From Sipunculus nudus (lineage: Eukaryota; Annelida; Sipuncula; Golfingiida; Sipunculidae): a stretch of 64,000 nt of DNA. A model generated the notes under the pieces. That model made no database searches. It was not told the origin of the DNA and worked only from the letters and a program-made list of their open reading frames with translations. Shown here in pieces: positions 3,745-63,347 of the stretch. Both the position numbers and the translations under genes were made by a program. Numbering within the stretch: the first letter of the stretch is position 1; each line of letters starts with the position of its first letter. The DNA lies in NCBI GenBank assembly GCA_026874595.1, contig CM049319.1, positions 2,880,601-2,944,600 of the forward strand. The letters are read 5' to 3'.

Positions 3745-4437
3745 TGGTAAGGCATCATGGTAACACTATAAGTTAACATGGAGACAGACATACGGTGCCC
3801 ATACCATATCACTTCATAAGGCATCATGGTGACACTATAAGTTAACATGGAGATAGACATACTGTGCCCATACCATATCACTTCATAAGGCATCATGGTG
3901 ACACTATAAGTTAACATGGAGACAGACATACGGTGCCCATACCATATCACTTCATAAGGCATCATGGTGACACTATAAGTTAACATGGAGACAGACATAC
4001 GGTGCCCATACCATATCACTTCATAAGGCATCATGGTGACACTATAAGTTAACATGGAGATAGACATACTGTGCCCATACCATATCACTTCATAAGGCAT
4101 CATGGTGACACTATAAGTTAACATGGAGACAGACATACAGTGCCCATACCATATCACTTCATAAGGCATCATGGTGACACTATAAGTTAACATGGAGACA
4201 GACATACGGTGCCCATACCATATCACTTCATAAGGCATCATGGTGACACTATAAGTTAACATGGAGATAGACATACTGTGCCCATACCATATCACTTCAT
4301 AAGGCATCATGGTGACACTATAAGTTAACATGGAGACAGACATACGGTGCCCATACCATATCACTTCATAAGGCATCATGGTGACACTATAAGTTAACAT
4401 GGACACAGACATATGGTGCCCATACCATATCACTTCA
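3745..4437. repeat. 69-bp minisatellite, 10 units, with 207-bp higher-order structure
   Basis: Ten near-identical 69-bp units run head to tail. Units 2, 5 and 8 carry GAGATAGACATACTGTG, whereas the others carry GAGACAGACATACGGTG or close variants, so the variant recurs every third unit (207 bp). Because 69 is a multiple of three, one of six frames (minus strand) stays open across the array and reads as a 23-residue peptide repeat; the other five frames have stops in every unit. I treat the long ORF as a by-product of unit length, not a gene. Confidence 0.95.
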
Positions 4438-4439
4438 TG

Positions 4440-10932: not shown

Positions 10933-11227
10933 CCATAAAAAATAAAAGGTATGATTCTAAGGCACTGCCCGCGTCAATTTTATCCCCCCCCCCCACATCA
11001 ATTTTTTTTTTTATTTTCTTCTTTCATGAAGATAAAATAAAACAATTTTGATATGATTTCCTTTGTTAAGTAGTGCTTTTACCTGTTTAGCAAAAAATTA
11101 TGTTATTTTCATGCTTTTCGCTGATCATATGACATTTTTATCAAAACATGCAAAAAGGTAAAAAATAAAATATTGCCTGCCCGCACTGGTTTCTGAAAAA
11201 AGGGCCTGAGAACCATTCCTTTTTTTT
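10933..11227 (-). mobile_element. PIF/Harbinger-type MITE, reverse and decayed copy
   Basis: Ends match GGTATG(G/A)TTCT(C/A)AGGC and its inverse, the same termini as the elements at 40096 and 23987. Interior landmarks such as TAAGTAGTGCTTTTAC and the CTGCCCGC motif appear in reverse relative to those copies. The outermost GGCC and TTA flank are not preserved. Confidence 0.7.
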
Positions 11228-11239
11228 GTTTGCATAACA

Positions 11240-12860
11240 TCTATATTATAACTAACACTCCATTAAGTCATTGTGATGTAACTCCTTTGTGGCCTGAGAA
11301 AGCCTATAGTTTTGATCTTGAAGAGTCCAGAACAATACCAAGTGTGTCCATTATTTTCTTTAAAATGAGGAATTTGACATTATTTCATGAACAATAAATC
11401 ATAGTGCCATCTATCAGAAACTATGCCAGTCCACTTAGCCCATGTCAACAAAGCTCATGAGCAAGGGACCCATGGGTCAAGGCACTCAGCTGTTATATAT
11501 GATCACAACATATCATTTGGAAGAGGGAGTAGAAAAATGCTAGTTTTATGTGGTAATATAAGCTGTATTATGAGATGATGGTGTTTAACTCAAGTTTCGT
11601 AAGTTTTAGTTAAAATACTGGGATATAGGGAAGAGAACTGATGTCATTTATATTATTTACATTTGGAAATGGAATGCTATTGTCACACAAGTTTTGACTT
11701 GGCCTGATACTGCAAGTATACACCATTTTGTCGATTTTATCACGTGAATTTTATCTCATGAGTATTTATTTAGTTTCAGTCAAACAAAGTTGCTGAGAAT
11801 AGAGTATAAACAAATTACACAAATTAAAATAAAGATCATAGGTAACTGGTTTTATATCTTTAATTTATATTAAAAAAAAATAAAACTATTATATTCATTT
11901 TTAAATACTTTCACATCAATCTACACACTAAACATTGCAAGAGTCTTATGGCAAATATAAACATCATAATGAGAACTGGTCTAAGTTCTGATTTTTTCAT
12001 CACATTTGATTTTTTTTTAAATTTTTTTTAATACATATATCAGTAAACAAAATGAAAAGTAGTCTCAGCTATGAAACTAATATATGTGTAAAAATAATCC
12101 AATAAATCATTTAAGGAGCTAAGTGGAGATGAGCATGTTTAATTTTTAAACTAAAATAAAAGAATCAGTAATATAAATTTGATTATAAATTTACACTGTA
12201 TCATGTGACAACCAATACAGCCATGAATCTTAATGTCAGTAGTCTAACATATTGACATCTTTACTTGTCTGGGTAATACCTTAAATTTTTTACATATTTT
12301 AATTTATTTTATTTTTTTTACAATAAATATAATTGAACAAACTGGAACACTTGGAAAAAGACTTGATAAATTTAGATTGATTTAATATAATAATAAACTG
12401 CATCCTTGTCTATCATTAATTTGCTTCATATAACACTAAGTGTTAAAAACAATTTTATTCAATCATTTTTTCTTACATTATTAAATTGAAATGAAAAATA
12501 CCCAAACGTGACTACATGGTGTCATTTGGAATACATCTGGGGCCATCCATACAAGACCCACACAACATCAGTAATTGCAAGGTGATTCCCTGTTACTCAT
12601 TAAGTATAAATTCATCTTCAATTAATTTTTCTTAAAGTTGTCATTAAAAACCGATAAAAATTTATTTCATTATTGTTATTTGTTATGTTGTTGGGCAAAA
12701 CAATTACCAGAGGAGGGGGTTTTGACACATGGGACCAGCTGGGGCCAGCCAAGGGCTGGTTGGCTGCAGAGTATGTGCATCTTCAAGGCTTCAAGCATGT
12801 ATAATTAGCCTGAAAGGTCAACAATGGTGACATACATGTGACTTAAGAGGGGCTGCAGTA
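11240..12860. other. AT-rich non-coding stretch
   Basis: No bounded repeat, RNA gene or plausible exon recognised; poly-A/T runs dominate. Confidence 0.4.
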
Positions 12861-23879: not shown

Positions 23880-23986
23880 GCACATTGATACAACGTTTGA
23901 TTTTACAAATCTTGTAGGCCTACATGGCGAGCTCTTAGCGTGTTTCCATGTGAGAATTGTCAGAAGCCTGCATCGTAGACACATTA

Positions 23987-26040
23987 GGCCAAAATAAAAA
24001 AAAGGTATGGTTCTCAGGCAATTTTTTTCAGAAATCAATGCGGGCGGGCGCTTTTTTTTTTTTTTAATTTTTTGGTATGTTTGATAAAAATGTCAAATGA
24101 TAAGGGAAAAGCATGAAAATAACAGTTTTATTTTGCTAAATAAGTAAAAGCACTACAAAATAAAGGAAATTGAATGGTTTTATCTTCTTGAATGAAATGT
24201 CGGAGCGGCAGCAGCTCAAAATTGGAAAGTTTTTATAGAAAATCAAAATAAAAATTTTTGATGCGGGGGTTTAAAGTTGATGCTGGGAAGTGCCTGAGAA
24301 CCATACCTTTAATTGTATCCGCCAAAACAGAGTTTTGCGGATACTATGTTTTCAGCTGGTCGCCGCCGCCGCCGCCGCCGCCGCCGCGTAGGTGTCCGGA
24401 GAACTCCTCCGTAACCGCTGGGCGGAATTTTCCGAAACCCGGGATTATGTTCGGGTCACATGTGAACTGCTGCGCCCCGATTTTGTTTTGACCTCTGACC
24501 TTTCCTCTGCGCTCTGCGTCCGTTTGTGCGTCTGTTTCCACACATAAACCCACATATCTCGGGAACCGTTTGACCGATCAGGAAAATTTTTTTGCACAAA
24601 TGTAGCCCTCGGAGAGCTTTATAACATACACCAAAAATGGTGGCGCCACCTGCAACCATGTTTGCACAGTGTCCATCTGTTCGTCTGCCTTGGGTTAAAA
24701 TCACTCATATCTCTGCAGTGACTTGACTAATTCACCTGAAATTCGGCATGCGCAAACATCCTGGATAGCTTTTCTGATTTTATGACAGGTGGCGCCACCT
24801 ACATTCACGTTGACGCTGCAGACATCCAAGCTCATATCTCGGGAACCGTTTGACCGATCAGGAAAATTCTTTTGCACAAATGTAGCCCTTGGAGAGCTTT
24901 ATAACATACACCAAAAATGGTGGCGCCACCTGCAACCATGTTTGCACAGTGTCCATCTGTTCGTCTGCCTTGGGTTAAAATCACTCATATCTCTGCAGTG
25001 ACTTGACTAATTCACCTGAAATTTGGCATGCGTATACATCCTGGATAGCTTATCTGATTTTATGACAGGTGGCGCCACCTACATTCACGTTTACGCTGCA
25101 GACATCCAAGCTCATATCTCGGGAACCGTTTGACCGATCAGGAAAATTCTTTTGCACAAATGTAGCCCTTGGAGAGCTTTATAACATACACCAAAAATGG
25201 TGCCGCTACCTGCAACCATGTTTGTACAGTGTCCATCTGTTTGTCTGCCTTGGGTTAAAATCACTCATATCTCTGCAGTGACTTGACTAATTCACCTGAA
25301 ATTTGGCATGCGTATACATCCTGGATAGCTTTTCTGATTTTATGACAGGTGGCGCCACCTACATTCATGTTTACGCTGCAGACATCCAAGCTCATATCTC
25401 AGGAACCGTTTGATTGATCAGGAAAATTTTTTTGCACAAATGTAGCCCTTGGAGAGCTTTATAACATACACAAAAAATGGTGGCGCCACCTGCAACCATG
25501 TTTGCACAGTGTCCAGCTGTTCGTCTGCCTTGGGTTAAAATCACTCATATCTCTGCAGTGGTTTGACTAATTCACCTGAAATTCTGCATGCTTATACATC
25601 CTGGATAGCTTTTCTGATTTTATGACAGGTGGCGCCACCTACAATCAAGTTTACGCTGCAGACATCCAAGCTCATATCTAGGGAACCGTTTGACCAATTG
25701 GGCCAAAATTTTGCATGTGTATAGTTCTCACAAAGCTCTTTATCATACGCTAAACTGGTGGCGCCACCTGCAACCCTTTTTTGCACAGCGTCCATCTGTT
25801 TGTCTGCCAAGGGCAAAAATCACTCATATACAATATAGTGGTTTGACTTATCTGCCTTAAATTTTGCATATGTATACAACTTGGACGGCTTTCTGGATTT
25901 TTTGGTAGGTAGCGCAACCTACATACACAATTTGGCTGCAGACATCCATGCTGATATGCAACACTTCACCCGTTCCACTCTGATTTAGGCGGATACAAGT
26001 AGTCGCTTGTCGACTACCCGTATTCTAGTTTTTTTGGGCC
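23987..26040 (+). mobile_element. PIF/Harbinger-type MITE split by a Helentron-like insertion
   Basis: The left part (23987-24312) starts GGCC then an A-rich run and GGTATGGTTCTCAGGC. The right part (26029-26040) finishes in T-run GGGCC. Exact TTA repeats flank the whole (23984-23986 and 26041-26043). With the 1716-bp insertion removed, the 338-bp MITE aligns end to end with the uninterrupted copy at 40096-40372, including the closing GCCTGAGAACCATACC. It is non-autonomous. Confidence 0.85.
24313..26028 (+). mobile_element. Helentron-like non-autonomous element (HINE), copy 1
   Basis: The 5' end TTGTATCCGCC is matched by an internal inverse GGCGGATACAA at 25988-25998, an asymmetric inverted repeat. 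After it comes a 7-bp-stem hairpin GTAGTCG-CTTGT-CGACTAC (25999-26017), seven bases and a terminal CTAG (26025-26028). This layout matches Helentron/Helitron2 rolling-circle elements. A second hairpin sits at the 5' end (GTATCCGCCAAAAC...GTTTTGCGGATAC, 24315-24344), followed by a CCG run (24361-24387). The core is a tandem array with GGTGGCGCCACC palindromes at 24639, 24788, 24919, 25068, 25199 (mutated), 25348, 25479, 25628, 25757 and 25908 (decayed). Spacing alternates 149 and 131 bp, a 280-bp repeat. Open frames in each unit recur identically and are not genes. No Rep-helicase is encoded. The architecture resembles bivalve pearl-type elements. Confidence 0.8.
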
Positions 26041-38904: not shown

Positions 38905-41900
38905 CTGTCAATGAACAATGTTTCAGTATTTTAATATAAGCTCCAGGCCCTTTGTCTTTATCATCAGATGAGAAAATAATGAGTGGAAAAAAATATATTT
39001 CGAAAAATTGCATTCAAAACTATAATCTGGGCTTTTTAAAGAGAATCTGCTTCTTATATACTCCTTCCTGTATCAGTGGTATAAATAGATATTACAGTAA
39101 CAGTATTACCATGGTATAAATATGTACTACAGTATATATAGATATTACAGTATAACAATGGAATAATATATATAACAGTATTACCATGGTATAATAGATA
39201 TTACAGTATTTCCATGGTATAAATAGATATTACAGTATTACCATGGTATAAGATATTACGGTATTACCATGGTATAAATAGATATTACAGTATGACCATG
39301 GGATAAATAGATATTACAGTATGACCATGGTATAAATAGATATTACAGTATTACCATGGTATAAATAGATATTTCAGTATTAATATGGTATAAAATGATA
39401 TTACAGTATTACCATGGTATAAATATATATTACAGCATTACCATAAGTTTTACAGCAGTTAAATGAATAAATATTATTAAAACTTAAAAACATGGATTAA
39501 TGAATTCAATTAAAATGAAATTTCAAATATACATTTAAATAATTTTACAGGACTATAGGTAGGTAAAACAGAATTACTTGTGCCAATAAGTCAAAAACAA
39601 ACTACAAGGGACCCATAGGTCATGGCGCTCAGCTGAATATGACAGCTGAGTATCACCGTTGTTGTATATAGGTACGTAAGATTTCATTTTGACAGATGTA
39701 ATTTTTTGTAATAAGTATCAGTATTTCAAATATGTACAAGAATATGTGTCTAAAATATTGCATTGGGAATGACCAGATGTTGTAAATTGCAGAGGAAGGA
39801 AGTGGAGATTTGCAAGTATAAAAATACACATTTAATACATTCAAATAATTATGGAAAAGTAGAAAACTGATATGTTTTGGGAAGCAGTTGTTGCTGAATG
39901 AGAGGAAACAGAATGTCTTAAAGGTATCTATAGAGAAGAAATAAATAAAAAATAACATGATAAACTACCTTCCTGTAAATATTAAAATATTAAAGTCAGC
40001 TGGCCTAAAAAGTACAGTACAACAGAAATTCATAGTACAGTTTTTACCTTTAAAGGGAGTTAAAAGAAATAATTTAAAATTAATATGAGTTGTTAGGCCA
40101 AAAAAAAAATAAGGTATGGTTCTCAGGCACTTTTTTTCAGAAATCAGTGCGGGCGGGCGGTATTTTATTTTTGACCTTTTTTTGGATGTTTCGATAAAAA
40201 TGTCATATAATCAGAAAAAAGCATGAAAATAACAAATTTTTTTGCTAAACACTATATAAATTGTATTATTTATCTTCTTGAAAGATAAAAATCAAAATAT
40301 AAATTTTTGATGCGGGGGGTTAAAATTGACGCGGGCGGTGCCTGAGAACCATACCTTTTATTTTTTTTGGCCTTAAATATAATTTTTATGAAGCAAGCAA
40401 TATTCTTTACCTTGTTACAGATGGGACATGTTACGGGTGGGACAAAAAGATGTATTTTTTATCTGCTGTATAATAAATGCAACGGGCAGGGATACAAATA
40501 AGGTAAAAACAGTTCAGGTTAGTGCTTTTCTGCAAAAAAGATTAAATTTTTATCTTCTCCCTAATTTTACAGTGTTATTCCACTGTTACGGGTGGGACAG
40601 TTATGATTACAGATATCTATCTTTTCAGATGAAACACTTTATTCTTATTTATTCAAGTTATATGTACCCCAGACTCGTATGAAAAACCGATGGTGCCACA
40701 GTATCCCAAGACAATTAATCACCCTTCAAGAATAGGCCCCCATCTTCAGCAGCATATACTGACACTTGGCAAGCGACTATGGTTTCTTCCATTAATTGAT
40801 TCAAATAAAAAGCTGTGAACGAATTCATTTTCAAATGAGCATACACTATATCTGATAAGTATATATTGTAATGTGTAGTACACAAATATGTGGTATTAAA
40901 CTATTTAATAATACACCTGAACATTTCCGTATTTGGCCCATCTGTAACATGAATGTTATAATGTAACTGATATTGGATCAGTATTTTAAAATATATTATT
41001 TAAGCACATAAACGGGGGGGGGGGGGGGGGGGTGATTAATTAACATTCCAGTGTACCAACTTTTGAACATTCTTAAATAAGATTTTGTGACCAACTAAAA
41101 CATATCAGGCTATAGCAGTTTGTGAATATGAGATCTATACTATTACCATAATCATTAGTTGGCTTTTTGATAAGCTGTTGACAGTTCAGCAGTTTACACT
41201 ATCCAATTAAATCCATTGTTTTTAAATATATACAAACATAATGTTCCCTTCCCACACGACCAGATTGGAGGGGGGGGGGGAGGCGGAGGATGAGAGTTTA
41301 AACACACCTTTGTACCTCTGTATATTTTTTCTTTATTTACCAGTAATAAATTTTATGCAGTTGCCAGAAGAATATTGTCCCAAACAAATACTCAGTGGCC
41401 GGGAGTGAGGAAAGTTACAACACCTTTGCATAAACATACAGGATACAAAATATAATCCAAAAGTGCTTACAGGTAAAAAAAGTTTTATTCATAATTATTG
41501 AATATTTCAAAACAAACAGAGATATAGAAAAACAAAGCAAATCACTTTAATTCTCATTCTACTGAGGCAGAAAAATACCGAACGAATGTGTGCATTAGAT
41601 CTCCATTTTTTTAATACATCAATTCTTTGTTAAGGAAAATTTTGGACAAAATTTATAAATTTTACTATACATTTACAGTATACATCTATTATATTTGAAA
41701 ATTTTAGTTGATTAACGATTCTAAATTGCATCAACATTTAGAGTTAATCTGCTCAGGCAACATCACATTATATACACATGTATTTATTTTTTCTTAAAAT
41801 ATATTTTTGAAATTTGCAAAATAATAAATATCGGAAATAACACTTGATTCAGGAAAAGTTGTATACATTGGATCGGAAACAGCAAAGAAATTAAAGAATG

Positions 41901-42182: not shown

Positions 42183-45100
42183 CCGACTGTGAAAAGTAAA
42201 TCAAATGTTCTTACAAGAAAGAACATGCCACGGTCAAACTTGGCCAAACTTTAAGGTACCAAATTTATATTTTTGCTAATATTTAAAAACATTTAACAGA
42301 TTTTGATCTATATTTTGATCTAATTTTTGGTATACAATTAAATTTTGATTAACTCAAGTTGTATTACTGAAAAAAAGTCTCTAGGTTTAACATTTTTGGT
42401 CTTAAGTGACCAAATATCTTTCCCTGATTTTTTACAAAGTCCATTATGTTTGGGCCCATTACTTTTTAAATTAAATAATACTGACCTTAATTTCCAGGCA
42501 TGTACATAGGAACTATAAAGAGGAATTTTTATGGTAAATATGAAGAAAACCAGATGAGTGGTTTTGATATTAGGCAGTCCTGAAGTGTGAAAATAGATTC
42601 CTAATAAAAAATTGAGGTTTTTCCTTAATATCTCGCAGGAACGAAGTCCTATTGACCCAATTTTCAGCATGGTACTATTGGTAGGAGATTTTGGGGACAT
42701 CTAACTGTATGCCATATTTCAGATTTGTAGGTCCAATGGTGTTGAAATGTGCCAGTCTTACGGACAGACATCCGGACGGACGACGGACAATGGACCACGA
42801 CTATAGCTCAGATGACTTATAGTCAGCTGAGCTAAAAAAATGGTAAGTTTTAAAAATAAAGTTTATGGCACAGAGGTAAACATTACATATTCAACAAGTG
42901 CACCAAAATTAGATTTTAATAAAATGACAACAGAACCATGCACTACACCATACACTAAAAATAAAGTTTTATAGTTAGAAACACTACACACCACAAATTC
43001 ACTGCAAGGTTTCTCCTCTGCTGATTGTTGGGGAAGGACTGTACTTCGTGCCACCAGAATGATGGCATGAATAAAACATCACCTTCCTCCAGTGTGCAGT
43101 TTAGTGGATGAACATCAGCAAACTTTGGAAAACGCTGAAGGAAGAGATAACTCACATTAAACTGAGAGTGATGGCAGGTTAAACTACCACAATTAACAAT
43201 TCTAGGTTTAATGTAGACAATTCAATTTTTACCTGTACCTTGCACCTTTTCTAGGAATGATTTTATGTTGCTGTACCATGGAATTCTCAATAACAGTATT
43301 ATTTAATGATGATCAGAATTAATTTTATTCAAATTTATTAGTCTTTTTTAATAGCAAGCCACTGTGGACTTCATGATTTATTAAACAGTAAAGCACATCC
43401 TTCCTTCTGTGCATAAAATAATTTAGTTCTGAGAAAAATGATATGCATCTAATAGGATTATATTACTAACAAAATGTGTAATATTTGGTATTTTCTAAGA
43501 GGATGAATTGTCCAGAATAGCACCTAATATAGCTTTGAGAAAAGTTATATACCTGTAGAAACAAGTTTACTTCAAACAAACTTTTTAAATTTGTCTTCCA
43601 AACTTAAAACTGAATAGCAAAACAAGCAGATCAGCCTATCCATACCTTAAAATCAGGGTTAAGGATATCAACTGGAGACATAACCATGGAAGTACTGTCT
43701 GACAATTCTTTCCTCTGGAATTTCTGTTTCTCAGCATCATAGTGAAGCATGGCTTGTGGAATGTGAGCTTCATACAACCGGGAGTTGTCATAGGGTTCAA
43801 ACATCACAACCTGTTTCTTGCCACTTATCTAGAATATAATAATAATAATAAAATTTTCACAAACAACCTGATGCAGTGAATAAATACTGGTGTTACAGGA
43901 TATATTGTGCTATTCATTTACAGATGATTTTACATTAACCTGATATCACATTAATATTTTATAAAATTAACAGTAATCTAACAAAAAAAAACTTACAGCT
44001 GTATATATTTGTACATCACTGAAACTTGTGGTTTAATTCTAAAAGCTCTCTGATAATTTTAAATCCTTCCATGTTATTTTGACTAACATGTATTGACAAA
44101 GAACAGAGTTCATATAACATTTTTGGCCCTTACTCATGGTTCACATAATATGTCAGGACAAAAGTCATTTAAGTAACTCACATAAGTGTTTGTACCTGAC
44201 AAAGCAAATTGTCAAAAGGATCAAAATGCAAGCGACCAAGTGTGTTTCCATCACTCAGCCATATGTTAAAGTGCCGCCTTGTCAACAATCCTTTCACAAA
44301 ATCAAACGGCTGTATATCAACTTCAAGCTCTGGCATATATTCTGGAATTGAGGAGTATTCCAAGTATGCAGAAATGTTCTTTTCTTTCTGTTGTGCTGCA
44401 TATTCAATGAGATCAAGAAATTTTGCAAACTTTATATTCAAAGTTGCAGGTCTCACAACCACAAGATCAGGGAATTTAAGCTGTTCTCTCACTTGAGCTG
44501 GAATGTCAAATGTGTCATAATTATCCCAAAGTTCTGCTTTTTCAACTCCTTCATAATCTCCACCAGGTGTGAGCTTTATGTGAACCTCTCTTTCACCATA
44601 TTGGTCCCGCAGAAACTCTTTGGTCCACTTTGAAACAGCAGGCCAATCGGATATGGCCTTTTCAAATATTACTGGTCTGGATAATTTCAGATACTTATGA
44701 AAAAATTCTTCCTTGTTGGGTAAAGTCTTTAGTCTTTCGCATTTAGCCATTTCAGTTTTAGGCTCCTTAGAATATATTGATTTTGCTTTATTTGTGCTGG
44801 TGACACACGTTTCATCATTATTTATTTCTGTATTGACACTGCAATCACTGTGAAATGAAAAACTTTGGTTCAGCGGGTTATTTGTCGTGTGGTAAAGTCT
44901 CCCCATTGTCATATTGGTCACTTGTTTTGTGAGAAATAAATTATTTAAAATAAATTGTCTGTGCAGTCCTGCGCTTGAAAGGGCACCATTCTCTTCTCTG
45001 AATGTACCGCATCGGTGGTTAATAAATTCCATCAGCAATGGCAGACTTGGTCTCCCAGTATACTGTTCAGCCTCGGGGACATGATACGTGTGTGCGGGCT

Positions 45101-45476
45101 TAAGTAGGCATTTGCGATCCAATATCTTCTTTGGAAAGAAAGCAAGATCATTGTTTGAGGCCTCGTGTTGAAACCCTTTCGCCTTCCACCTGATCTCCTC
45201 ATAGGCAGTCAACTGCAGACGAGCCACCAGAACATGGGCGTCTTCAAGGAAGTTTTTTGACAGCTGCTCCAGGGTGGGCGATAATTCAGGATTTACAGGC
45301 TCCAAAGCCGCTAAAACACACGCATCCGCTACTATTTGATCTATATCCTTCAGTGTTAGTATTGGTAAGTAACCGTTGGCCGATACTTGTAGCAACAAAC
45401 CAATAAACATTGAAAGGATGCAGAAAGTTTTAAGATTGGTCGGTGGGGCCGTCGTCCCGCCCGTGGGCGCAGCCAT
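38823..45476 (-). CDS. JmjC-domain (cupin_8) 2-oxoglutarate oxygenase, complete four-exon gene
   Basis: The coding sequence joins 45476-44196, 43828-43646, 43134-42992 and 38904-38823 (1689 bases, 562 residues plus TAG). Every junction has GT...AG borders and keeps the frame. The family uses Fe(II) and 2-oxoglutarate to hydroxylate proteins. The iron triad is visible as H417-x-D419 (LHFDPFDN, exon 1) and H517 (FWWHEV, exon 3); K431/K432 in ISGKKQ is a likely 2-oxoglutarate contact. Residues ~17-34 (KTFCILSMFIGLLLQVSA) look like a signal peptide, suggesting ER or secretory residence. Residues ~35-270 form an unrecognised N-terminal region with conserved-looking Cys. The C-terminus after NLW reads YEPFLTKEFPC then a second Cys. 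JMJD7 of vertebrates has a similar catalytic layout but is far shorter and lacks the signal peptide, so I give no symbol. The start has a good context (AACATGG). The 4.1-kb third intron holds a MITE, the R1 repeat and a 29-bp minisatellite. Confidence 0.88.
39075..39445. repeat. 29-bp minisatellite, about 12 units
   Basis: The unit is approximately ACCATGGTATAAATAGATAT followed by TACAGTATT. Each unit starts with the palindrome ACCATGGT. Units vary mostly by loss of a few bases. It lies in intron 3 of the JmjC gene. Confidence 0.9.
40096..40372 (+). mobile_element. PIF/Harbinger-type MITE, uninterrupted copy
   Basis: The 277-bp element runs from GGCC plus an A-run and GGTATGGTTCTCAGGC to GCCTGAGAACCATACC plus a T-run and GGCC. 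The TTA repeats at 40093-40095 and 40373-40375 are exact. It lies in intron 3 of the JmjC gene and preserves the empty form of the site into which the Helentron-like copy at 24313 inserted in its sister element. Confidence 0.88.
40414..40950. repeat. Possible ~530-bp inverted-repeat-bounded element
   Basis: TTACAGATGGG near 40415 and CCCATCTGTAA near 40940 are exact inverses. TGTTACGGGTGGGACA occurs at 40429 and again about 155 bp later. No target duplication was found. Confidence 0.35.
41012..41031. repeat. Poly-G run
   Basis: A G homopolymer of about 19. Similar runs occur at 28017-28032, 31841-31855, 33296-33312, 41271-41280 and 48907-48922. Confidence 0.9.
42119..42182. repeat. (TA)n microsatellite
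   Basis: About 31 TA units with one TT interruption, abutting the R1 repeat copy 3. Confidence 0.95.
42210..42836 (+). repeat. R1 interspersed repeat, copy 3
   Basis: It carries the shared landmarks of the copies at 8450 and 12890: GCCACGGTCAAACTTGGCC, AAATATCTTTCCCTGATTTTT, TAGGCAGTCCTGAAGTG, GAGGTTTTTCCTTAATATCT, CATCTAACTGTATGCC and a 3' end at GACTTATAGTCAGCTGAGC. It lies in intron 3 of the JmjC gene. Confidence 0.75.
42992..43134 (-). CDS. JmjC gene, exon 3
   Basis: Acceptor CTTCCTTCAG|CGT; donor TTGTG|GTGTGT. It encodes RFPKFADVHPLNCTLEEGD onward to NL plus the first two bases of a Trp codon, and carries the third iron ligand (H517, in WWHEV). Confidence 0.88.
43646..43828 (-). CDS. 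JmjC gene, exon 2
   Basis: Acceptor ATTCTAG|ATA; donor AAG|GTATGG. Exactly 61 codons from ISGKKQVVMF to NPDFK, continuing the cupin barrel and followed in phase by exon 3. Confidence 0.88.
44196..45476 (-). CDS. JmjC gene, exon 1
   Basis: Exactly 427 codons from ATG (45474-45476) to CAG, with donor CAG|GTACAA. It encodes the signal peptide, the unrecognised N-terminal region and the first half of the JmjC fold through H417 and D419. Confidence 0.9.
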
Positions 45477-45482
45477 GTTGGC

Positions 45483-45504
45483 TCTCGCGCTTCTTATCGC
45501 GAGA
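45483..45504. promoter_or_regulatory. Split TCTCGCGAGA-type palindrome at the JmjC promoter/5'UTR
   Basis: TCTCGCG (45483-45489) and CGCGAGA (45498-45504) are exact inverses separated by 8 bases, starting seven bases upstream of the ATG. TCTCGCGAGA is a known metazoan housekeeping-promoter motif, but here its halves are spaced apart, so a regulatory role is inference. The local sequence is CpG-richer than the surroundings. Confidence 0.35.
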
Positions 45505-47233
45505 CAACACGTAAGCGTTAAAATAAATTCACTACTGTTAGGATTAGTTCACATTCGTTATGTGACTAAGTTAACGCAGTGTTGCCGAGGAAGTTCATCC
45601 TTATCAGCCCACACCTGTTTCATTTCTTTGAATGGGAAAAGATGAAACCACAACAGATGCGGAACCGACTTTGCAATGTCGATCGCATGTCTCAAGCTGA
45701 TATCGAGGGACTATAAATTTGTTGATGTGACACATTTTATAATAATTAAATAATATCAATAAAACTAGCAATAGCCATATTAGGCTATATACAAAAAAAT
45801 TAAAAAAACAACTAGAATTTACAATTCTATACGCCAATAATCAAGTACTTAAATGAGTTATTTTTTGATAATTTGGCGTATAAAAAAATATGGAGTCGGT
45901 TGAAAAACTTGAAACAAAGAAAAGATAACGAAAATTTACGATAAGGCATATAATACGTACATGCACTTTTTGTGTAGGCCTCAGTAATATAAAAATCAAA
46001 TATGATGGTAAACAAACTGAAATTGGCCAGGCTCACTCACATTGTGCAGAACAAGTCCATGTAGTACATTTCGATCCAATCCATGCTGTCAACATTTAGA
46101 ACTCATATTTAGTGGGAGTACTTAGAAAAATATAACTCGAAATTTCACAACCGTCTACCCTTTAGGCCTATATAAGGTCTATAAACTAGTAGAATTTAGG
46201 CCCGGCTATACATAGGCCTAACTCTCGAAAGCGGAGATACAGGGTAGCACACGGTAAGGTGCAAACTCCGGCGGTATTAAGCGTAAATTATTCTATTATG
46301 AACTATTTTCATTTTTTTAGATCCAGTGCAAGAAGTGTTTGCTGAACTGAAACTGCTACATTATAGCTACTGATTTGCCTATCTTACTAAGCCTAAGGCT
46401 ATGGCTGACGTACTCCCAAAATGGAGAAAGCTATATAAATATAAAGATATAATCTAGTACGGCAAATCAAGGCCATGCAACGCATAAGTCCATTGAGAAA
46501 TCAACCCTTGTACAAATTTTCACTTCAATCAAATGTCAGCTGGTCTTGCCCAATTTTTTTAAAGAAATGGTTCAATTCCATTCAAACATCGCACAGAGAC
46601 AGAAATTAATTTGTTTGACTTAAGACTAGTGTTTAAGTTTTATTACCCCGTGTTGAAATGTAACAATAACTAAAAATTAGAACTGTAGTAAAAATATTAA
46701 ATTTTCGTTAAATTTAAAGAATACATATGACGTCAATATTCTCATACATTATTCTTGTCTGGCGGATGGAGCGCAAGAACACGTTAGTTCACAAAATTAC
46801 CGACAGGGGACAGCACACGGTTTGTCCTGTGAGATAGCCTCCTGAAGAATCACGAGAACTCTGCTTTTTTTGTGACAGTATATAGGAATTGAGGCTATAA
46901 GGAATTGAGAGGTGAAAGGTGGCCTTCATTATCAACTTACAGTGTACTTTGCCTTGCAATCTGACAAACATGAAATGTACAGAACAAGAACTTTCAAATA
47001 CTTACAAGTGGAGTGTTCAAGTGGATAAAAAAGATAGCCTTCATTTTGTCCTTCTGGCGGAGGCTATGTTTCTGTATTGAGGACGACCGAAGAACTTGTA
47101 CTGTTTAGTATCTGAAAGCATGTCAATTTATTCAGAATATATACTTTGAATTAAATTCCTCAGCAAATCAATTTCGGGAAATTCTCAGCACACTGGTTTT
47201 ACCCCTGTCTTTTTATTTTATTATAAATGTGGG

Positions 47234-47434
47234 CAGAAGCGGATCCTGAGGGGGGGTCCAGGGGGTCCGGACCCCCCCCCCCTTTTTCACCCGAAGCAAC
47301 CTTTTTTAAAGGGTTTAGACAAAATTTTGCGGCCTGGACCCCCCTCTTTTCCGGACCTGATGACCTTTTTTAGGATTTTCATAAGTCCTCTTGGGTTGGA
47401 CCACCTCTTTTACTAAATCCTGAATCCGCCCCTG
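47234..47434. mobile_element. 5-bp-TSD MITE (CAGAAGCGGATCC family), copy 4
   Basis: Starts CAGAAGCGGATCC, ends GAATCCGCCCCTG. It is flanked by exact GTGGG repeats (47229-47233 and 47435-47439). The corresponding place in block A' (around 59085) reads ATAAATATGGACATT, an empty site. Confidence 0.9.
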
Positions 47435-47639
47435 GTGGGCATTTAATTTTTATCACATGTATGAAAACCTTAATCACCCCCGTTCCATGGCAGGGTTTGG
47501 TGTTGCTGCGTCAGTTCAACTACAGGATTTCTGCTTGAAAACCGCTTGCGACCAGTGTCTTGCGGGGTCTCTTAGTAGAATCTGTTTCTATCTGTAATTA
47601 TCAGTGAGAGCTGGCATTTGAAAGAAGCTAATCTCAGGG

Positions 47640-48120
47640 CTATGTCAGATACAAGATGGCCTTCGTGAAAGCAGAGCAGTGAAGGCAAAATCCGCTGTCA
47701 AACAGACTCCAAACAGCTGGGAATCAAGGCCATGTCAGATGAAAGATAGCCTTCGTGAAAGCAAGGCGGTGAAGTTCAAGTCGGTTGTCAGACGAACTCC
47801 AAACAAGCTCATTTCCAAGACTATGTTAGGTGTCAGATAGCCTAAAAACAAGCTCAAAACAGAGCTATGTCAGATACAAGATGGCCTTCATTATGCACGG
47901 CAGTGAAGGCCTAGTCGGTTTGTCAGACGGACCCCAAAACAGTGAAAGCCATGTTGGATGCATGATTGACACGAAACATGCTCACTACCGAGGCCACCTG
48001 GTGCATGGGCAGAGTGTAGTTGCCTGACGAGAGTGGCTAGTTTTGTCTGGCTAGTTTGGTAAGAGTGATGCGAGGTAGCACCCATGAGTGCACAGCAGAG
48101 AGAACAAATCGGGTCTAAGA
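47640..48120. repeat. Decayed ~100-bp tandem array (block A)
   Basis: Recurring phrases are CTATGTCAGATACAAGAT, AGCCTTCGTGAAAGCA, GCAGTGAAGGC, TCGGTTGTCAGACG, GACTCCAAACA and an AAGCTC... spacer. They recur about every 90-110 bp with heavy divergence. No frame is conserved. Confidence 0.6.
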
Positions 48121-48589
48121 TAGCCTACAAGATAGCCCATTAGGAACAGCCTATCAGCTTGTTTTTATTCTCTTCGCTATCAGGTTTAAAAAAACACTTT
48201 GGGTATGCATCAGCTGTATGTATGGATTTGTTTCCTTGAAATTTCAGCATCACCTGCAGATAGAAACTGCAGATTGTTACCCTGTGCACTTTATAACCAC
48301 TAGTAGCTGCTATAAATAACTGATAGAAAGAGGGCAGATGGATTTTGATAGATCGAATTAAAAAAATAAACAAAAAAAAAAATAAAACGTAAGGATGGCA
48401 ATAAAAACTGGATTCAGTAGAAAAGCAGTAATAGACATTTCGATTATTTAATTACTATATTACAATTATACCTGTTCAATTCTCGTTATGAAAAATCGGC
48501 TGGCAACGTACTTTAAAATGAATATCAATCCGTAGAGAGTGGGATGCAATCATTACAGAAAATACTCTGAATGATGCTGATATTATTGT

Positions 48590-48640
48590 CATTATTATTA
48601 TCATTATTATTATTATTATTATTTATATTTAAATAAAATA
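48590..48640. repeat. (ATT)n microsatellite, empty counterpart of the Helentron-like insertion site
   Basis: An imperfect ATT run. In block A' the same run is split by the element at 61336-63315. Confidence 0.85.
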
Positions 48641-50029
48641 TCAACTCAAAAATTGCATCTATAAAACCTGAAAGGTTTTAATTTCATCTCAACGAGTATG
48701 TGGAATTTCACCCGTCATTTAAGTTCTAGTATATTTTGTTTAGGCATGTACCATTTATTACATATATGAAACCGGTGAATAATAGGGGTTAAAGACAGTT
48801 TCGAAGTCATTAAATACAACTGGTAGAATTCATGTGACAAGCGTCTTGTCGGTGTCTTTACAGTGAGGGCTGTTTTTCGAACTCTGGAAAGGGAACGTTT
48901 ATGTTCGGGGGGGGGGGGGGGGTTGGACTCCCTTTCGTGAGTCAAATGGCCTCCAGATCGGCATCGAGAGGAGAAGCAACATATGTCATAACCAAATTGG
49001 CCTCCATATCAGCACGGCAGTGAGGCCATGTCAGATATAAGAAAGGCTTGAAACAAGTCCATCACAGCGCTATGTCAGATACAATTCATGTAAGAATTGC
49101 AGTGAAGACCAAGTGATTTGTTAAGCTGTGTTTACATTCACCCGTAAATCAAGTACGTCAGGTACGCAAAAAATCGGATCCCTCTTTTTAAGATGAACTG
49201 TTTCCATATGTACGATTTAACGTGCTCGGCATGCGTATCCGCAAAAACGGACAGCATCGAAACGGATCGGTGAGCGATTCATCCGTTTTGCGGATGGCAA
49301 AAATGCCTACATTTCCCAACAGTGTCGTCTGTTATCAGACGGTATACAGGTCTGTTGAATTACTATTTGTGTTATAAATAGGAAACATTGAATCACTGAT
49401 ATAACATTAGAGAGGACGATTTGATATTTCCCAGACTATTTGTAATTTCTATTTCTGAATATTATTACATTATGAATATTATTTTATATTGTATATTTAG
49501 GGAGGCAGGATATCGACTAGGACGGGCTACACAAAACGTGTTTAATTAGTGATAACGGTGACACATTATTTATATATGGTGTCCATTACTGAAATAATAT
49601 AATATCAAAAGATTAAACATATATTCTCATACAGTCTTTTTAAAGTGACTACGAAATCGTGTTATAAACCTTTCAATGCCCATCATTACTCCGAGTCAGA
49701 TCCAGAGTTTCAGCGGGCTGCATTAATCTAAAATAAAAACCTTATTTTAAGCGGGGTTCTTTATTCATCATATATATTAAAAACAGATTAAATTATCAAC
49801 ACATCTTTATTTCATGTCCGTGCATTTTTATTATCTAAAATAAAACATGGCTTAATGTGGAAAATAATGAAGGTTTATGTACTCAGATTCAAATTTTAAA
49901 CATTATAACCAATTTATGATTTAAACTACATCATAACCAGTGCATAATATACACAAAAAGTAAACTGAGGAGCGCGATAGCCTCAACAAGCCTCCATATG
50001 TACAGCGAAGGTGCTCCTGAGTAAGCTCC

Positions 50030-54250: not shown

Positions 54251-54363
54251 TTTTCAGTAAAACGATACTTTGTGAGACTATACCTACATTGTGATACTAG
54301 GCCCACAAGTGGGTTTGTATAAATAGGTACAAATCGACCCTCTGAACTTGTTTAGGGGTACCA

Positions 54364-57300
54364 GTGTCGCGATGCTACGGACGATGTTTTTTGTTTGAAC
54401 ATATTTGTCCGTCTCAAAATAGTCAGTTAACATATTTAGCGGACATTGATGAAAATTATAGTTACACAGCCGTATCAGGCATGGACTCTAGCAGGGACAT
54501 ACATTTAGGTAGGCCTAAGGGTGGCGTGGCCATCCTTTGGCGTCAATGCTTGTCCAGCAGGGTAACCATACTTCAGAAAGACCACTCTCGCATTTGTGCT
54601 ATACTAGTTAATGTGGGTGCTACTTTTAATATCTTATTTATTTGCTGTTATTTACCATGTGGCACCAGGGCTAGAGATGTTGAAAATGAATTTTTGGAAT
54701 GCCTGAATGTGGTACAGCAGATAATTGCTAGGAATCCATGTGACGTAGTTGTAATTGCAGGTGACCTAAATGTAGATTTGAGTAGATCCACGGGTAATGT
54801 AAATTACTTAAAGCAATTAGTGCTGGATTTAAATTTATATTTTGTATGGAATCATGAAAAAGCTGAGTGTCAAGCTACATACGAAAGTTATGATAGTAGT
54901 TCCGTATCAGTAATTGATCATTTTATATGTTCACGTAATATTTATGATAAACTTGTAACGGCCAAAGTCATAACTGACGTTGACAATACCTCCAATCATA
55001 ACGTTATTATCATGGAGATGAACTGTTCACATAAAGTATTAACTGGAACAGGGCAACGTCTGATGACAAATTGAACTATAAACGTACATTGAACACCTTA
55101 CTTTGTAACAAAAGTTTTCCAGCTGATGTTTTTAACTGTAATAACCCTTTATGTAAAAACAAAAAACACTGTGATTTGATTGAGGATATGTGTAGCGATA
55201 TGATACAATGCATGTTTAAAGCCTCAAAAGATACAATTCCCACTCATTTACCAAAGAAAAAAAGAAAACCATTCTGGCATGAGATTGCACAACCAGAACG
55301 TAAAAAAGCATTGTTGTGGCACAATATTTGGAGAGATAGCGGGCGGCCCCGAACTGGATATGTTGCGGACATCCGACGTAGAACCAGAGCGAACTATCAT
55401 AGAGTTGTTAAAAAGCTTCTGAAGGGGGGAAGATAGAGGGCGCTTATGTCGTATGGCAACAGCTGTGGCGAAGGACCACTCACGTAACTTATGGACGGAA
55501 ATAAAAAAGCTACAGCCACCTCAAAGACGTAATGCCCATATTATTGATGGATTAAACACAAATAAGTTTAAAGATAAATACAATAATTTATATAATGTAT
55601 GTGCAACAGATTCCAAGGAACAAGGAATTTTAATGGAGACTATTCATGCTACGATTGCACATGATTCCAACATCCTTCATCGAGATCATACCATAACGGT
55701 ACAGCAGGAAGCAGAGGGAATAGCTATGCTGAAAACAGGGAAATCAGATGGATTAAATAATTTATATTCTGACAATATCATATATAGTTCTAACCGATGT
55801 AACGTTCTACTTTCTTTAATGTATACTGCAATGTTATCCCATGGATATTTCCCACGATGTATAAATAACTCAGTAATTGTGCCTATCCCCAAGGACAGAA
55901 AAGGAAACCTGAACGACAGCGAAAATTACCGTGGTATAGCACTTAGTAGCTCAATCGGTAAGCTCTTTGAGATCATCATATCTCAGGTATACAATAATTG
56001 TTTTCGCTCATCAGAATTACAGTTTGCTTTTAAAGAGAATCACTCCACGACAATGTGTGCTACAGTTTTAAAGGAAATTGTATCTTATTATAGGTCACGA
56101 GGTAGTAAAGTGTATAGTTGTTGCCTGGATGCCAGCAAAGCCTTTGACAGACTTAATTTTGGTAAAATGTTTTCCTTACTTATTAAAAAGGGGATTCCTG
56201 GGGTTATCGTAAGACTTCTTTATGATCAATATAAAAATCAATCAATATGTGTTGCATGGAATGGTGAGACATCTGATAGTTTCTGTTCACAAAACGGAGT
56301 GAAACAGGGCGGGGTGCTTAGTCCACTAATATTTAACCTATACATTGATGAATTGTTATCCAGATTACGTTTAAGCGATATTGGGTGTCACATTGGACAC
56401 AAATATGCAGGCTGTCTGGCCTACGCTGATGACCTGATGCTATTGGCACCATCGGCAAGCGGGTTACAAAAATTAGTGAATATCTGTAGCAAGTATGGAA
56501 TAGAGTACTCCATAACATACAATCATAAAAAATCAGTATGTTTAGAATTTTGTAATGAATTAAATATGGATTATCCAACTATTGTTTTAGATAACAATAA
56601 GCTTTAATGGGAAATAGGATTAAATACTTAGGTATATATATTTCTAGTTCTCTCACAGACAGTGATGACATATGCCGTAAGAGAGCGGATTTCTTTGTGA
56701 AAGTAAACTCTCTTGTAGGGAACTTTGGTCATCTTCCTAGAAAGTTGGTGAATATATTATTTTCCCAATATTGCTGTTCGTTTTATGGTTCACAGAGTTG
56801 GAAACTCAAAAGTAAAGATATTGCCTCTCTCATCACTGCATATAATAAAGGTTTGAGATGTGTTTTGAAACTACCTCCAACAGCTCATAAATATATTGTA
56901 TTAAATATAGCCGGGAAGAAACCATTAAGATGTCAGTTAGAATTGCGTTTCATGAACATGTTTTATTATATGTATAGTTCAGACAATTCTATTGTTTTAC
57001 ATGTAGCTCGGAATGCTTGTCGAGACCTTTTGACTCGTCTTGGTGGCAATATTAGCTATACATGATGGAGCAGTATGGGTTTTTATACGCAAAAATGTCC
57101 AAATCGTAACAAAAAGAGATTAGAAAACAGATTATTAATAGATTCTCATTTAATGAAGATGAATATGCTCAGGCAGAGTTGGTAAGAGAAATTATTGAAT
57201 GTCTTGATTGTACGATGTATGTAGAAAATTTTGACAGGGCAGATTTAGAACATATGCTTGCCGTGATATCCACTCAATAAGCAAGCACAACGGCTTTTGA

Positions 57301-58020: not shown

Positions 58021-59091
58021 GGGATAATTCGTGTTTATAAAGATAAAAAAAAGTAATAAGAATTCATGTATGTTAAACAGATTGATGTAATTATCAGTGC
58101 TGTGATATCTAAAACATGAAATCTGTATAGTATTCAGAACATATATAGAGATATATGTATAAATGCAGCATCATGAAGATTATAAATATTGCTTGCATTA
58201 TTTTTTTACTGCAAGATACAACGCGACAGGAGCGGACTCTGACACCGACGTTATTGCTATTTGTCTGGCTTACTAAGCCTATAAGGCTGACACACACAAA
58301 AATGGAGAATGCTATATAAATATATGGATATAATATAGTATGGCAAATTCAAGGCCATGCAACGTAAACATCCATTGAGAAATCATCATTCACTCCAAAT
58401 GTCAGCTGGTCTCGACCTTTTGAAAAAATGACTGGTCTTATTCCATTCAAACATCGCACATAGACAGAGCAAGGTCTATATTTATTTGACTGAAGGCTAG
58501 TATTTCAGTTTGATTACCCAATGTGAATATGTAACAGAATAACTCTGAAGTTAGAAATGAAATCAAAACTATAAGTTTTTGTTAAATAGTGAAAATACAG
58601 ATAACGCCAATATTCTCATGAATAAACATGTATAATCTAGTCCGGCGGATGGAGCACAAAAACAACTTTGTTCACAAATTTACCGGCAGGGGGCAGCAGA
58701 CGGTTTGTCCTCTGAGATAGTATCCTGAAGAATCACGAGAACTCTGTTTCTGTGACAGCACATAAACAGTCAGTGGGCAAGTGACAGGTTAAAGGTGGCC
58801 TTCAATATCAACTCAGAGTGTACCTTGCCTTACACTCTGGCCGTTATAAAATGTATAGAACAACACCATTTAGAAGTGTTGGAAGTGTTGAAATTAATAC
58901 ATTTGTCTTTCTGATGGAGACTGGTTTATGTGTCGAGGACGACTGTAGACCTTGTGTTGTTAGTATCTGAACCCATGCCAACTAATTCAGAATGTATGCC
59001 TTTCATGGAAATCCTCAGCACATCAATTTCGGGAAATTATCAGCACACTGGCTTTACCCATGTATTTAATTTTATTATAAATATGGACATT

Positions 59092-60028
59092 ATATATATA
59101 TCACACTAGCTGATAAACCCGGTATACCGGGCTTTTTACCGCGGTTAGGGAGATATATTTAATAAGATATTGAATGTTGGTTCATTTTTTTATTATAAAA
59201 GTTAAAAGAAAATATAGATTTTTAGTGGGAAACTTTCGGAATACGATATATACAAATAATTTTTTACTGTTATTTTGTGGCGCTGTGCTCGTGGCAAAAA
59301 TCATATCCCGGTACGTTTACCTTGAAGACGTGGTCAGTGATGGTTTACATTACGAACCGGAATGAGACGCGGAGGCATACAGTGTTTCGTTGATATTTGA
59401 CTGGCTTCTATCGTTGGACGTATAAAGAATAGGTTGATGTGTGGAAAACATGAAAGATTGATTAAATGTACGTTGCAAGGAAACTGTTCCTGAAGAAGGA
59501 AACAGAAATATGCATACATCGTAAGTAGCAGAAGTGGACCCAGCGGGACTCCATGCAGTGGGTCCGTATCCCATTTTCAGCCACCGCAACCTTTTTTCAT
59601 CGTTTCAGAGAAATTTTGAGGCCTGAAACCCCCGACACCACCCAAGCCCTGTTCCTGAAATTGGGACCTTAAATTAGGTTTTGTCACTGAAACATGTGTT
59701 TTTCTCTTTTACTGACCACGCACGTGGGTCAAATCCCTCATTGAAAGCAAGCGTTATTCATTTGAACAATAGTCCTTAGTGTAAGAGGTTAAGTGAGCAC
59801 GATGCACGCATTCCGGTGATTGCCGAAGGCAGTTCGGCTGTGCTCAGTAAAAAAACGGTAAAATCACTAAAAATTATATGAATATTAAGAATTATTTATT
59901 TTCATATCGCCTATGTCACTGCGGGGATAATAACCTTTAAAATGATGTATGGCACAATATTGTACACAACGCGGTTTTAGAGAACATTGCGAACAAACGT
60001 GAACTGAAATCCTTTTTTAAGTATTAGA
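59092..60028. mobile_element. Unidentified ~0.94-kb insertion in block A'
   Basis: The boundaries come from comparison with block A. Near the left end, CACACTAGCTGATAAA is followed by a perfect 14-bp palindrome CCCGGTATACCGGG and then ACCGCGGT. A ~60-codon open frame has no recognised domain. No terminal inverted repeat was found, so it may be the 3' part of a retroelement or a Helitron-like fragment. Confidence 0.5.
59529..59735. mobile_element. 5-bp-TSD MITE (CAGAAGCGGATCC family), diverged copy 5
   Basis: It starts CAGAAGTGGACCCAGCGG and keeps the TTTTCAGCCACCGCAACCTT, CAGAGAAATTTTGAGGCCTG and GGGACCTT blocks. The right end is too diverged to place exactly. Confidence 0.55.
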
Positions 60029-60289
60029 TAGATGTATGAAAACCTTAATCAAACCGTACCATGGCAGGGTTTGGTGTTGCTGCGTCAGTTTAACTACAGG
60101 GATTTCTGCTTGAAAACCGCTTGCAACCAGTGTCCTGCGGGTCTCTTAGTGAAGACTGTTTTCCTTTCCCTGGAAAAAGGTCATTTTCAGTGAGAGTTGG
60201 CATTTCATTCGTGAGTAAAATGTTCACCAGACCTGCATCGTGAGAAGGCGATGTCACATCCAACGTAACCTCCATATCAATACGGCAGA

Positions 60290-61335: not shown

Positions 61336-63315
61336 TTGTATCCGCCAAAACAGAGTTTTGCGGATACTATGTTTTCAGCTGCACGCCGCCGCCGCCGCCG
61401 CCGCCGCGTAGGTGTCCTGAGAACTCCTCCGTAACCGCTGGGCGGAATTTTCCGAAACCCGGGATTACGTTCGGGTCACATGTGAACTGCTGCGCCCCGA
61501 TTTTGTTTTGACCTCTGACCTTTCCTCTGCGCTCTGTGTCCGTTTGTGCGTCTGTTTCCACACATAAACCCACATATCTCGGGAACCGTTTGACCGATCA
61601 GGCAAATTTTTTTGCACAAATGTAGCCCTCGGAGAGCTTTATAACATACACCAAAAATGGTGGCGCCACCTGCAACCATGTTTGCACAGTGTCCATCTGT
61701 TCGTCTGCCTTGGGTTAAAATCACTCATATCTCTGCAGTGACTTGACTAATTCACCTGAAATTCGGCATGCGTAAACATCCTGGATAACTTTTCTGATTT
61801 TATGACAGGTGGCGCCACCTACATTCACATTACGCTGCAGACATCCAAGCTCATATCTCGGGAACCGTTTGACCGATCAGGAAAATTCTTTTGCACAAAT
61901 GTAGCCCTTGGAGAGCTTTATAACATACACCAAAAATGGTGGCGCCACCTGCAACCATGTTTGCACAGTGTCCGTCTGTTTGTCTGCCTTGGGTTAAAAT
62001 CACTCATATCTCTGCAGTGACTTGACTAATTCACCTGAAATTCGGCATGCGTATACATCCTGGATAGCTTTTCTGATTTTATGACAGGTGGCGCCACCTA
62101 CATTCACATTTACGCTGCAGACATCCAAGCTCATATCTCGGGAACCGTTTGACCGATCAGGAAAATTCTTTTGCACAAATGTAGCCCTTGGAGAGCTTTA
62201 TAACATACACCAAAAATGGTGGCGCTACCTGCAACCATGTTTGCACAGTGTCCATCTGTTTGTCTGCCTTGGGTTAAAATCACTCATATCTCTGCAGTGA
62301 CTTGACTAATTCACCTGAAATTCGGCATGCATATACATCCTGGATAGCTTTTCTGATTTGATGACAGGTGGCGCCACCTACAATCACGTTTACGCTGCAG
62401 ACATCCAAGCTCATATCTCAGGAACCGTTCGACCGATCAGGAAAATTTTTTTGCACAAATGTAGCCCTTGGAGAGCTTTATAACATACACAAAAAATGGT
62501 GGCGCCACCTGCAACCATGTTTGCACAGTGTCCATCTGTTCGTCTGCCTTGGATTAAAATCACTCATATCTCTGCAGTGGTTTGACTAATTCACCTGAAA
62601 TTCGGCATGCTTAGACATCCTGGATAGCTTTTCTGATTTTATGACAGGTGGCGCCACCTACAATCAAGTTTACGCTGCAGACATCCAAGCTCATATCTTT
62701 TGACCGATTGGGCCAAAATTTTGCATGTGTATAAATCTCACATAGCTCTTTATCATACGCAAAACTGGTGGCGCCACCTGCAGCCATGTTTGCACAGCTC
62801 CCGTCTGTTTGTCTGCCATGGGATAAAATCACTCATATCTCGGCAGTGGTTTGACATATCTGCCTAAAATTTTGCAAGTTTATACATCCCCGACAGCTCT
62901 CTTGATTTTATGACAGGTGGCGCCGCCTGCATTCTAGTTTATGCAGCAGATATCCAAGCTCATATCTTGGGAACCGTTTGACCGATTGGGCCAAAGTTTT
63001 GCATGTGTATAGTTCTCACATAGCTCTTTATCATACGCTAAACTGGTGGCGCCACCTGCAACCCTTTTTTGCACAGTGTCCATCTGTTTGTCTGCCAAGG
63101 GCAAAAATCACTCATATACATGTAGTGGTTTGACTTATCTGCCTTAAATTTTGCATATGTATACAACTTGGACAGCTTTCTGGATTTTTTGGTAGGTAGC
63201 GCAACCTACATACACAATTTGGCTGCAGACATCCATGCTAATATGCAACACTTCACCCGTTCCACTCTGATTTAGGCGGATACAAGTAGTCGCTTGTCGA
63301 CTACCCGTATTCTAG
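61336..63315 (+). mobile_element. Helentron-like non-autonomous element (HINE), copy 2
   Basis: 1980 bp with the same termini as copy 1: TTGTATCCGCC start, inverse GGCGGATACAA at 63275-63285, hairpin 63286-63304 and CTAG at 63312-63315. The core has palindrome sites at 61659, 61808, 61938, 62087, 62218 (one mutation), 62367, 62498, 62647, 62767, 62916, 63045 and 63195 (decayed), two more than copy 1. It is inserted in an ATT microsatellite that is uninterrupted in block A near 48.6 kb. No protein is encoded. Confidence 0.82.

Positions 63316-63347
<32 letters not shown>

Follow-up and report, generated by a model that had tools for sequence, protein, structure and literature searches.

Within the window, by which we mean the whole 64,000-nucleotide stretch of Sipunculus nudus DNA that was analysed, positions 24313-26028 are, we are fairly confident, a complete and recently multiplied HINE (a non-autonomous Helentron), which would be served by the Rep/PIF1/endonuclease helper of a rare Helentron with the same ends, the best candidate being the lineage of an element on C6. 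The initial annotation had proposed a non-autonomous Helentron here, and that reading is now supported by asymmetric ends, a 3' hairpin, copies with the same ends and a coding relative that carries both of them. A family with more than 4,000 5' ends in this genome has both ends in common with a rare element that holds Rep, helicase and endonuclease matches, and an apparent deletion derivative bridges the two; if confirmed, this would furnish a concrete helper-dependent pair for testing the rolling-circle movement of satellite arrays, together with a worked example of a reversed-gene Helentron. The layout of the element, which we call copy A, was read from the sequence and, for the 3' hairpin, from a DNA fold as well:

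24313..26028, plus strand: HINE copy A, complete, 1716 bp, ends read directly and shared by other copies
24313..24323, plus strand: 5' subterminal inverted repeat (subTIR) TTGTATCCGCC, unchanged in 38 of 39 copies
24315..24344, plus strand: 5' hairpin GTATCCGCCAAAAC-AGA-GTTTTGCGGATAC
24361..24387, plus strand: (CGC)9 microsatellite
24553..25957, plus strand: central array, 5.0 units of 280 bp
25988..25998, minus strand: 3' subTIR GGCGGATACAA, the 5' end inverted, without change in 38 of 39 copies
25999..26017, plus strand: 3' hairpin GTAGTCG/CTTGT/CGACTAC, 7-bp stem, 5-base loop
26025..26028, plus strand: 3' terminus CTAG (in 39 of 39 copies), then target TT

The inverse of the 5' end, the 7-bp hairpin, the seven bases after it and CTAG all lie exactly where they had initially been placed. 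The hairpin stands 11 bases before the 3' end, with the 7-base spacer CCGTATT leading into CTAG, and the 3' segment folded as DNA gives z = -2.9, an equally good fold arising in 2 of 200 shuffles. At the other extremity, the right arm of the 5' hairpin repeats the subTIR in inverse with two mismatches (24336-24346, CGGATAC), a second inverse that the initial annotation had missed and through which the 5' end folds as a hairpin of 13 pairs. The 280-bp unit of the array appears to be an old dimer of 153- and 127-bp halves, whose mutual identity is 50-61%, and GGTGGCGCCACC or a variant of it is present in most halves. Coding capacity is absent, the longest stop-to-stop frame reaching 82 codons in copy A and 119 in any of the 39 complete copies described below. 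Several features by which a HINE is recognised are found: subTIRs of which the 3' one lies inward, a 3' stem-loop, insertion at TT and no coding capacity. The only exact occurrences of the 11-mer in the window are at the two ends of copy A and of a second element, copy B, and letter shuffles of copy A's two ends gave an inverted repeat of at least 11 bases in 0 of 500 trials; the subTIR pair alone is not decisive, because such a repeat also turned up in 3 of about 500 stretches of 1716 bp taken at random from the AT-rich window, and it is the genome copies that settle whether the pair arose by chance.

In the 1.43 Gb assembly that was searched, the exact 18-base 5' end occurs 4,407 times (2243 + 2164, with 0 for the reversed-pattern control), and such ends are spaced 324 kb apart on average. 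With the first 500 bp as query there were 1,195 candidates, and in the surroundings of the best 40 we find both ends in 38, one of them at L019; of the remaining two, L018 has no 3' end, and in L039 the 5' end of the second copy is altered. The initial annotation had proposed just such a search with the termini, and had named full-length copies with differing ends as what would count against it; copies do share both ends, in a sample that is biased to copy A. Near these 40 lie three more 5' ends (L022, L024 and L033) with no 3' end in the fetched DNA, L032, where the 5' pattern is matched by chance, and L013 and L039, each with a place that has a 3' end but no 5' end.

We counted 39 complete copies, namely 37 of the best 40 plus copies A and B, leaving out L019, whose 3' end is cut. 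All but three are 1,696-1,761 bp long (36 of 39), the others measuring 1,980, 2,011 and 2,078 bp. Copy A has zero substitutions against the column majority of the set, and the median pairwise divergence is 0.8%, a figure for copies selected as best matches to copy A, in which divergent copies are under-represented and which makes the family look too young. Four copies that came up incidentally (copy B, and parts in L022, L024 and L033) lie 1.2-2.8% from copy A, and some copies of the window family are identical. Two tandem duplications were also seen. At L084 (C7:76681500-76685367), two copies of a HINE subfamily sit in a 1,964-bp duplication that is 99.6% identical, the first lacking its 3' hairpin and terminus, a loss that read-through in rolling-circle transfer could produce; at L052 (C4:96577000-96584500) a duplication with 4,150-bp spacing, 99.4% identical, holds a HINE and its flank.

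Copy B, a second complete element in the window, was overlooked in the initial annotation. Its ends are the 11-mer at 61336 and the inverse at 63275-63285, and it differs from copy A at 36 of 1711 aligned bases (2.1%). Both copies have related sites without an insertion within the same window:

61336..63315, plus strand: HINE copy B, complete, 1980 bp, 6.0 repeat units, inside a (TTA)n microsatellite
40300..40420, plus strand: related repeat without insertion, 71% alike, counterpart of the copy A site, CCTTTTATTTTTTTTGGCC
47638..48747, plus strand: paralogous segment without insertion, 83-84% alike, counterpart of the copy B site

The relative of the copy A site reads CCTTTTA-TTTTTTTTGGCC, and neither empty site, the one a poly-T and the other a (TTA)n tract, reveals a target duplication beyond TT; a 2-bp TT duplication is indistinguishable here from a TT borne by the element, and in such repetitive tracts single bases are not placeable. 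Across the 39 complete copies, the right flank is TT in all 39, T stands at -3 in all 39 and A at -1 in 37, and TNA^TT is found at 37 of the 39, against 1.1% of window positions. The site into which copy A inserted belongs to a dispersed repeat (23984-24314, 40093-40362 and 10933-11248), the first copy of which has inverted ends, AAAGGTATGGTTCTCAGGCA at 24001 and its inverse at 24291; the 15-base left flank of copy L024, elsewhere in the genome, is the same as that of copy A. Copy B lies in one half of an old segmental duplication that survives in pieces (46373-49818 and 58259-64000, 75-85% identical). The window also holds the remains of a non-LTR retrotransposon at 54346-57065, with endonuclease and reverse transcriptase domains in successive frames, a 456-codon open frame with a Cupin_8 domain at 44178-45548 on the minus strand, perhaps a host gene exon, and at 3748-4438 a 69-bp tandem repeat of 10 copies, 97% alike, one minus-strand frame of which is open for 276 codons.

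We infer that the HINE is mobilised in trans. A Rep/PIF1/endonuclease protein from a rare Helentron with the same ends would nick the 5' end of the HINE by its Rep, the PIF1 helicase would peel off one strand, the 3' hairpin would terminate the transfer, and the strand would be joined between T and T of the target. This genome has at least 143 matches to the Helitron Rep family (150 of 195 candidates scored) and at least 150 to PIF1 (150 of 256 scored), all of these being matched fragments and not complete genes. Rep motif 2 is visible in 28 of 30 Rep loci, with S before PH in 26, L in one (L054) and W in one (L079); S in this place is Helentron-like (PMC4067079, in part). L in this place would mark a Helitron1 Rep. 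None of the 30 Rep loci, which are 3.4-3.6 kb long and reach 1.5 kb on each side of Rep, has ends of the window-HINE type.

The 3' end with a non-HINE continuation occurs at 96 places; the two that were fetched, C6:50110132 and C8:36876483, have an unusual continuation in common. When all 96 were compared by eye with the Rep matches, C6:50110132 alone came within 20 kb of one, where chance would give about 0.3 pairs if 120 Rep loci are assumed. The exact 5' hairpin with a non-HINE continuation (100 of 141 places listed, judged by eye) gave only C6:42036923, which is about 18 kb from a Rep match but points away from the gene; the C6 candidate is absent from these places because its hairpin loop differs by one base. 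The variant that recurs among them, TACTAGTAAG, was rejected as a helper, the single locus fetched holding a HINE subfamily with about 79% identity to copy A. As an observation apart, the Helentron-type Rep locus L080 (C3, first 463 bases) loses its similarity to L082 at a repeat-bearing stretch that ends in the hairpin-like ATGCCCCGGCCACTTTGTGGCGGGGGCAT, possibly a different HINE family.

The initial annotation had looked to a Rep/helicase element with the same ends, and had named ends shared with a transposase-encoding cut-and-paste element as a second point against it. The coding relative that turned up, the C6 element, answers that point indirectly and is a candidate of the expected kind at one locus, with both ends and with matches to Rep, PIF1 and endonuclease:

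C6:50110116-50129775, minus strand: C6 element, 19,660 bp, target TAA^TT, both ends of window-HINE type
C6:50123428-50123739, plus strand: PF14214 Rep match, E 8.2e-20
C6:50125728-50126135, plus strand: PIF1 match, E 1.9e-8

Its 5' end reads TATAA^TTGTATCCGCC, or at greater length TATAA^TTGTATCCGCCAAAACAAAGTTTTG, and its 3' end CTAG^TTTT. The Rep and PIF1 matches lie 13-16 kb inward from the 3' end, on the strand opposite to the element, and beyond PIF1 there are 277 open codons that match Exo_endo_phos over the cut-off (E 2.9e-13). In the 3.2 kb beyond Rep/PIF1 the endonuclease codons come first; after a spacer there follows what is left of a HINE 3' end, then HINE-like repeats and finally the 5' end. 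The relic, at about C6:50128983, reads GATTTTGG followed by TGTATTCTAG and lacks both subTIR and hairpin. For about 14.5 kb of its length, in which Rep and PIF1 fall, the element is known from profile matches. Because the matches fall in separate open frames (Rep 364 codons, PIF1 443, endonuclease 382) and the Rep match covers only profile positions 103-190, the gene is either spliced or broken. What the window HINE shares with this element is limited to the first 791 bp (86.2% identical to HINE 1-809) and to the last 54 bp (91%) of a 3' end that follows 1.9 kb unlike the HINE. It is because the likeness is confined to these two parts that we take the C6 element to be a relative of the helper of the window subfamily, hence a candidate helper lineage and not a proven helper.

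How well do the two ends of the C6 element belong together? With 5' ends 324 kb apart on average, it is no great rarity for an unrelated 3' piece to have a 5' piece less than 20 kb away, and what mainly opposes a coincidental pairing is a derivative on C8, itself without the gene:

C8:36876467-36877625: C8 element, 1,159 bp, at a TAA^TT site

Over 801 aligned positions the 5' part of this element matches the C6 5' module at 94.3% identity (the window HINE at 85.4%), and the final 333 bp match the C6 3' end at 97.6%. The element seems to derive from the C6 type by deletion, and it shows that the 5' module and 3' tail of that type have travelled together. Coding relatives seem to be few. The C6 endonuclease as query (140 of 844 candidates scored) finds two more places at least 92% alike, the next relative being at 61%:

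C1:45761575-45762346: endonuclease relative in two pieces, adjoining PIF1 in an open frame of 722 codons
C12:51600947-51601252: endonuclease relative, a fragment with a stop, Rep match nearby

The helper lineage may thus be represented by C6:50110116-50129775, our best candidate, or by these relatives at C1 and C12. So few coding copies beside 4,407 HINE 5' ends agrees with the excess of non-autonomous copies over their partners reported elsewhere (PMC4067079, in part).

The explanation that competes most seriously with a C6 helper accepts the HINE as described and holds that the gene in C6 was picked up as a passenger or is dead, the actual helper lying elsewhere, for example in a clade with frames of about 2,230-2,430 codons. 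We would not call this probable, yet it is a real possibility. A HINE module with a relic 3' end stands ahead of a reversed gene, as read-through capture leaves it, the three C6 matches are in separate frames, and long open Rep/PIF1/endonuclease frames do exist elsewhere in the genome. That clade, whose members carry a motif resembling YVIRIEFQARGSPHAH and have open frames as long as 2,426 codons, is seen at C11:50385293 (2235 codons), C7:31578448, C4:36174940, C8:80139053, C3:43366583 and C13:66180677 (2426 codons); over 3.6 kb its C11 and C7 copies show 99.7% identity, and given this likeness it has perhaps been active recently. The 4 kb upstream of the C11 copy, searched on both strands, contain no end of the window type, and this speaks against the passenger, as does, weakly, the absence of such ends from the 30 Rep loci, which extend only 1.5 kb on each side.

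The same relic and the reversed gene after it suggest a composite origin. A satellite-carrying HINE may have lost its 3' terminator, with transfer continuing past that point, across a reversed helper gene, as far as a later, second terminator, the whole then being mobile as a unit, which the existence of the C8 derivative suggests. We put forward a composite Helentron of this kind only tentatively and lean somewhat against it. A relic terminator with a reversed gene fits the composite route, in which composite elements are proposed as the cause of gene-orientation reversal (PMC5148889, in part), and it fits a captured passenger equally, for which reason the helper role of C6 stays a candidate one. 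If the composite reading is true, there would be sequence evidence for the composite route to reversed Helentron genes, and a HINE family would have gained its own helper.

That the element is a Helentron derivative at all can be doubted from two sides, of which the better is a non-autonomous element of the canonical Helitron (Helitron1) kind. The features of that kind are a 3' CTRR, a hairpin 10-12 nt before the end and an A^T target (PMC5148889, in part), and CTAG indeed fits CTRR, the hairpin stands at a distance of 11 bases and an A^T reading suits 37 of 39 sites. The element nevertheless begins with TT and not TC, its asymmetric inverted repeat and 5' hairpin are traits that the same source, as far as we draw on it, gives to Helitron2, and its coding relative has an endonuclease domain, there a Helentron trait; we consider Helitron1 very unlikely. 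Least credible of all, and close to negligible in our opinion, is a cut-and-paste element such as a MITE, or a satellite that recombination has scattered, for although the element is short, non-coding and repeat-bearing, and although pearl was first described as a MITE (PMC7492417, in part), there are no inverted repeats at both extremities and no target duplication beyond the ambiguous TT, and a scattered satellite, like a cut-and-paste element, sits badly with both ends being kept in 38 of the 40 best matches.

We call the window family a new HINE family, new as far as text searches reach, and set it beside published families by their descriptions. A literature text search with three end strings brought up 8 papers, none of them about transposons to judge by title, and the first 16 bases of the element have 12 matches in viral contigs, 0 of them with the hairpin continuation, which we take as chance. 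Among the Helitron2 elements, FoHeli1 and FoHeli2 of Fusarium oxysporum have hairpins at both ends and an inverted repeat inward of the 3' end (12 bp there), as here, and they insert between TNAT and T (TNAT^T), the same site as our copies; they differ in being fungal and in their ends (TCAG...ATTTT, against TTG...CTAG), and the part of PMC5148889 that describes them notes no tandem array, whereas the window HINE has one. Pearl (CvE), DTC84 and MgE of bivalves, compared by description, are likewise short elements with tandem-repeat arrays, those of pearl having repeats of about 160 bp against 280 bp in the window HINE; pearl has been re-classed as a non-autonomous Helentron, and DTC84 and MgE are of comparable architecture (PMC7492417, in part).

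Arthropod families are covered in part of PMC4067079. Mite and Culex HINEs have palindromic subTIRs, and HINE-Mo and HINE-Cq resemble the window family in a palindromic 5' subTIR, a 3' stem-loop and tandem repeats in some copies, while Helentron-Da-40A has its Rep-helicase-endonuclease reversed, as has the C6 element. HINEs are treated there as deletion derivatives of Helentrons, with mite pairs 84-99.9% identical, Culex pairs above 95% and Drosophila DINE-1 pairs at 98%; the window family stands at 86% to its candidate, over the 5' module only, and against the Culex and DINE-1 figures it is only the C8 element that reaches 94-98% to C6. The same layout has been published for Cg_HINE of Crassostrea gigas, in a genome where tandem-repeat-bearing HINEs spread satellite-like DNA (PMC7492417, in part): an 11-12 bp 5' subTIR with its inverse adjoining, a microsatellite, an array, a 3' subTIR and a palindrome, and TT insertion in T-rich DNA without target duplication, a likeness of layout. 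The oyster consensus monomers are 138-181 bp, where ours is 280 bp as a 153+127 dimer, and the oyster microsatellites have mostly 4-base motifs (3- to 8-base motifs also occur), where ours is CGC. In the part of that study drawn on here, 0 of 10 autonomous Helentrons could be related to HINEs and no partner is linked to Cg_HINE, whereas the window HINE has a candidate partner.
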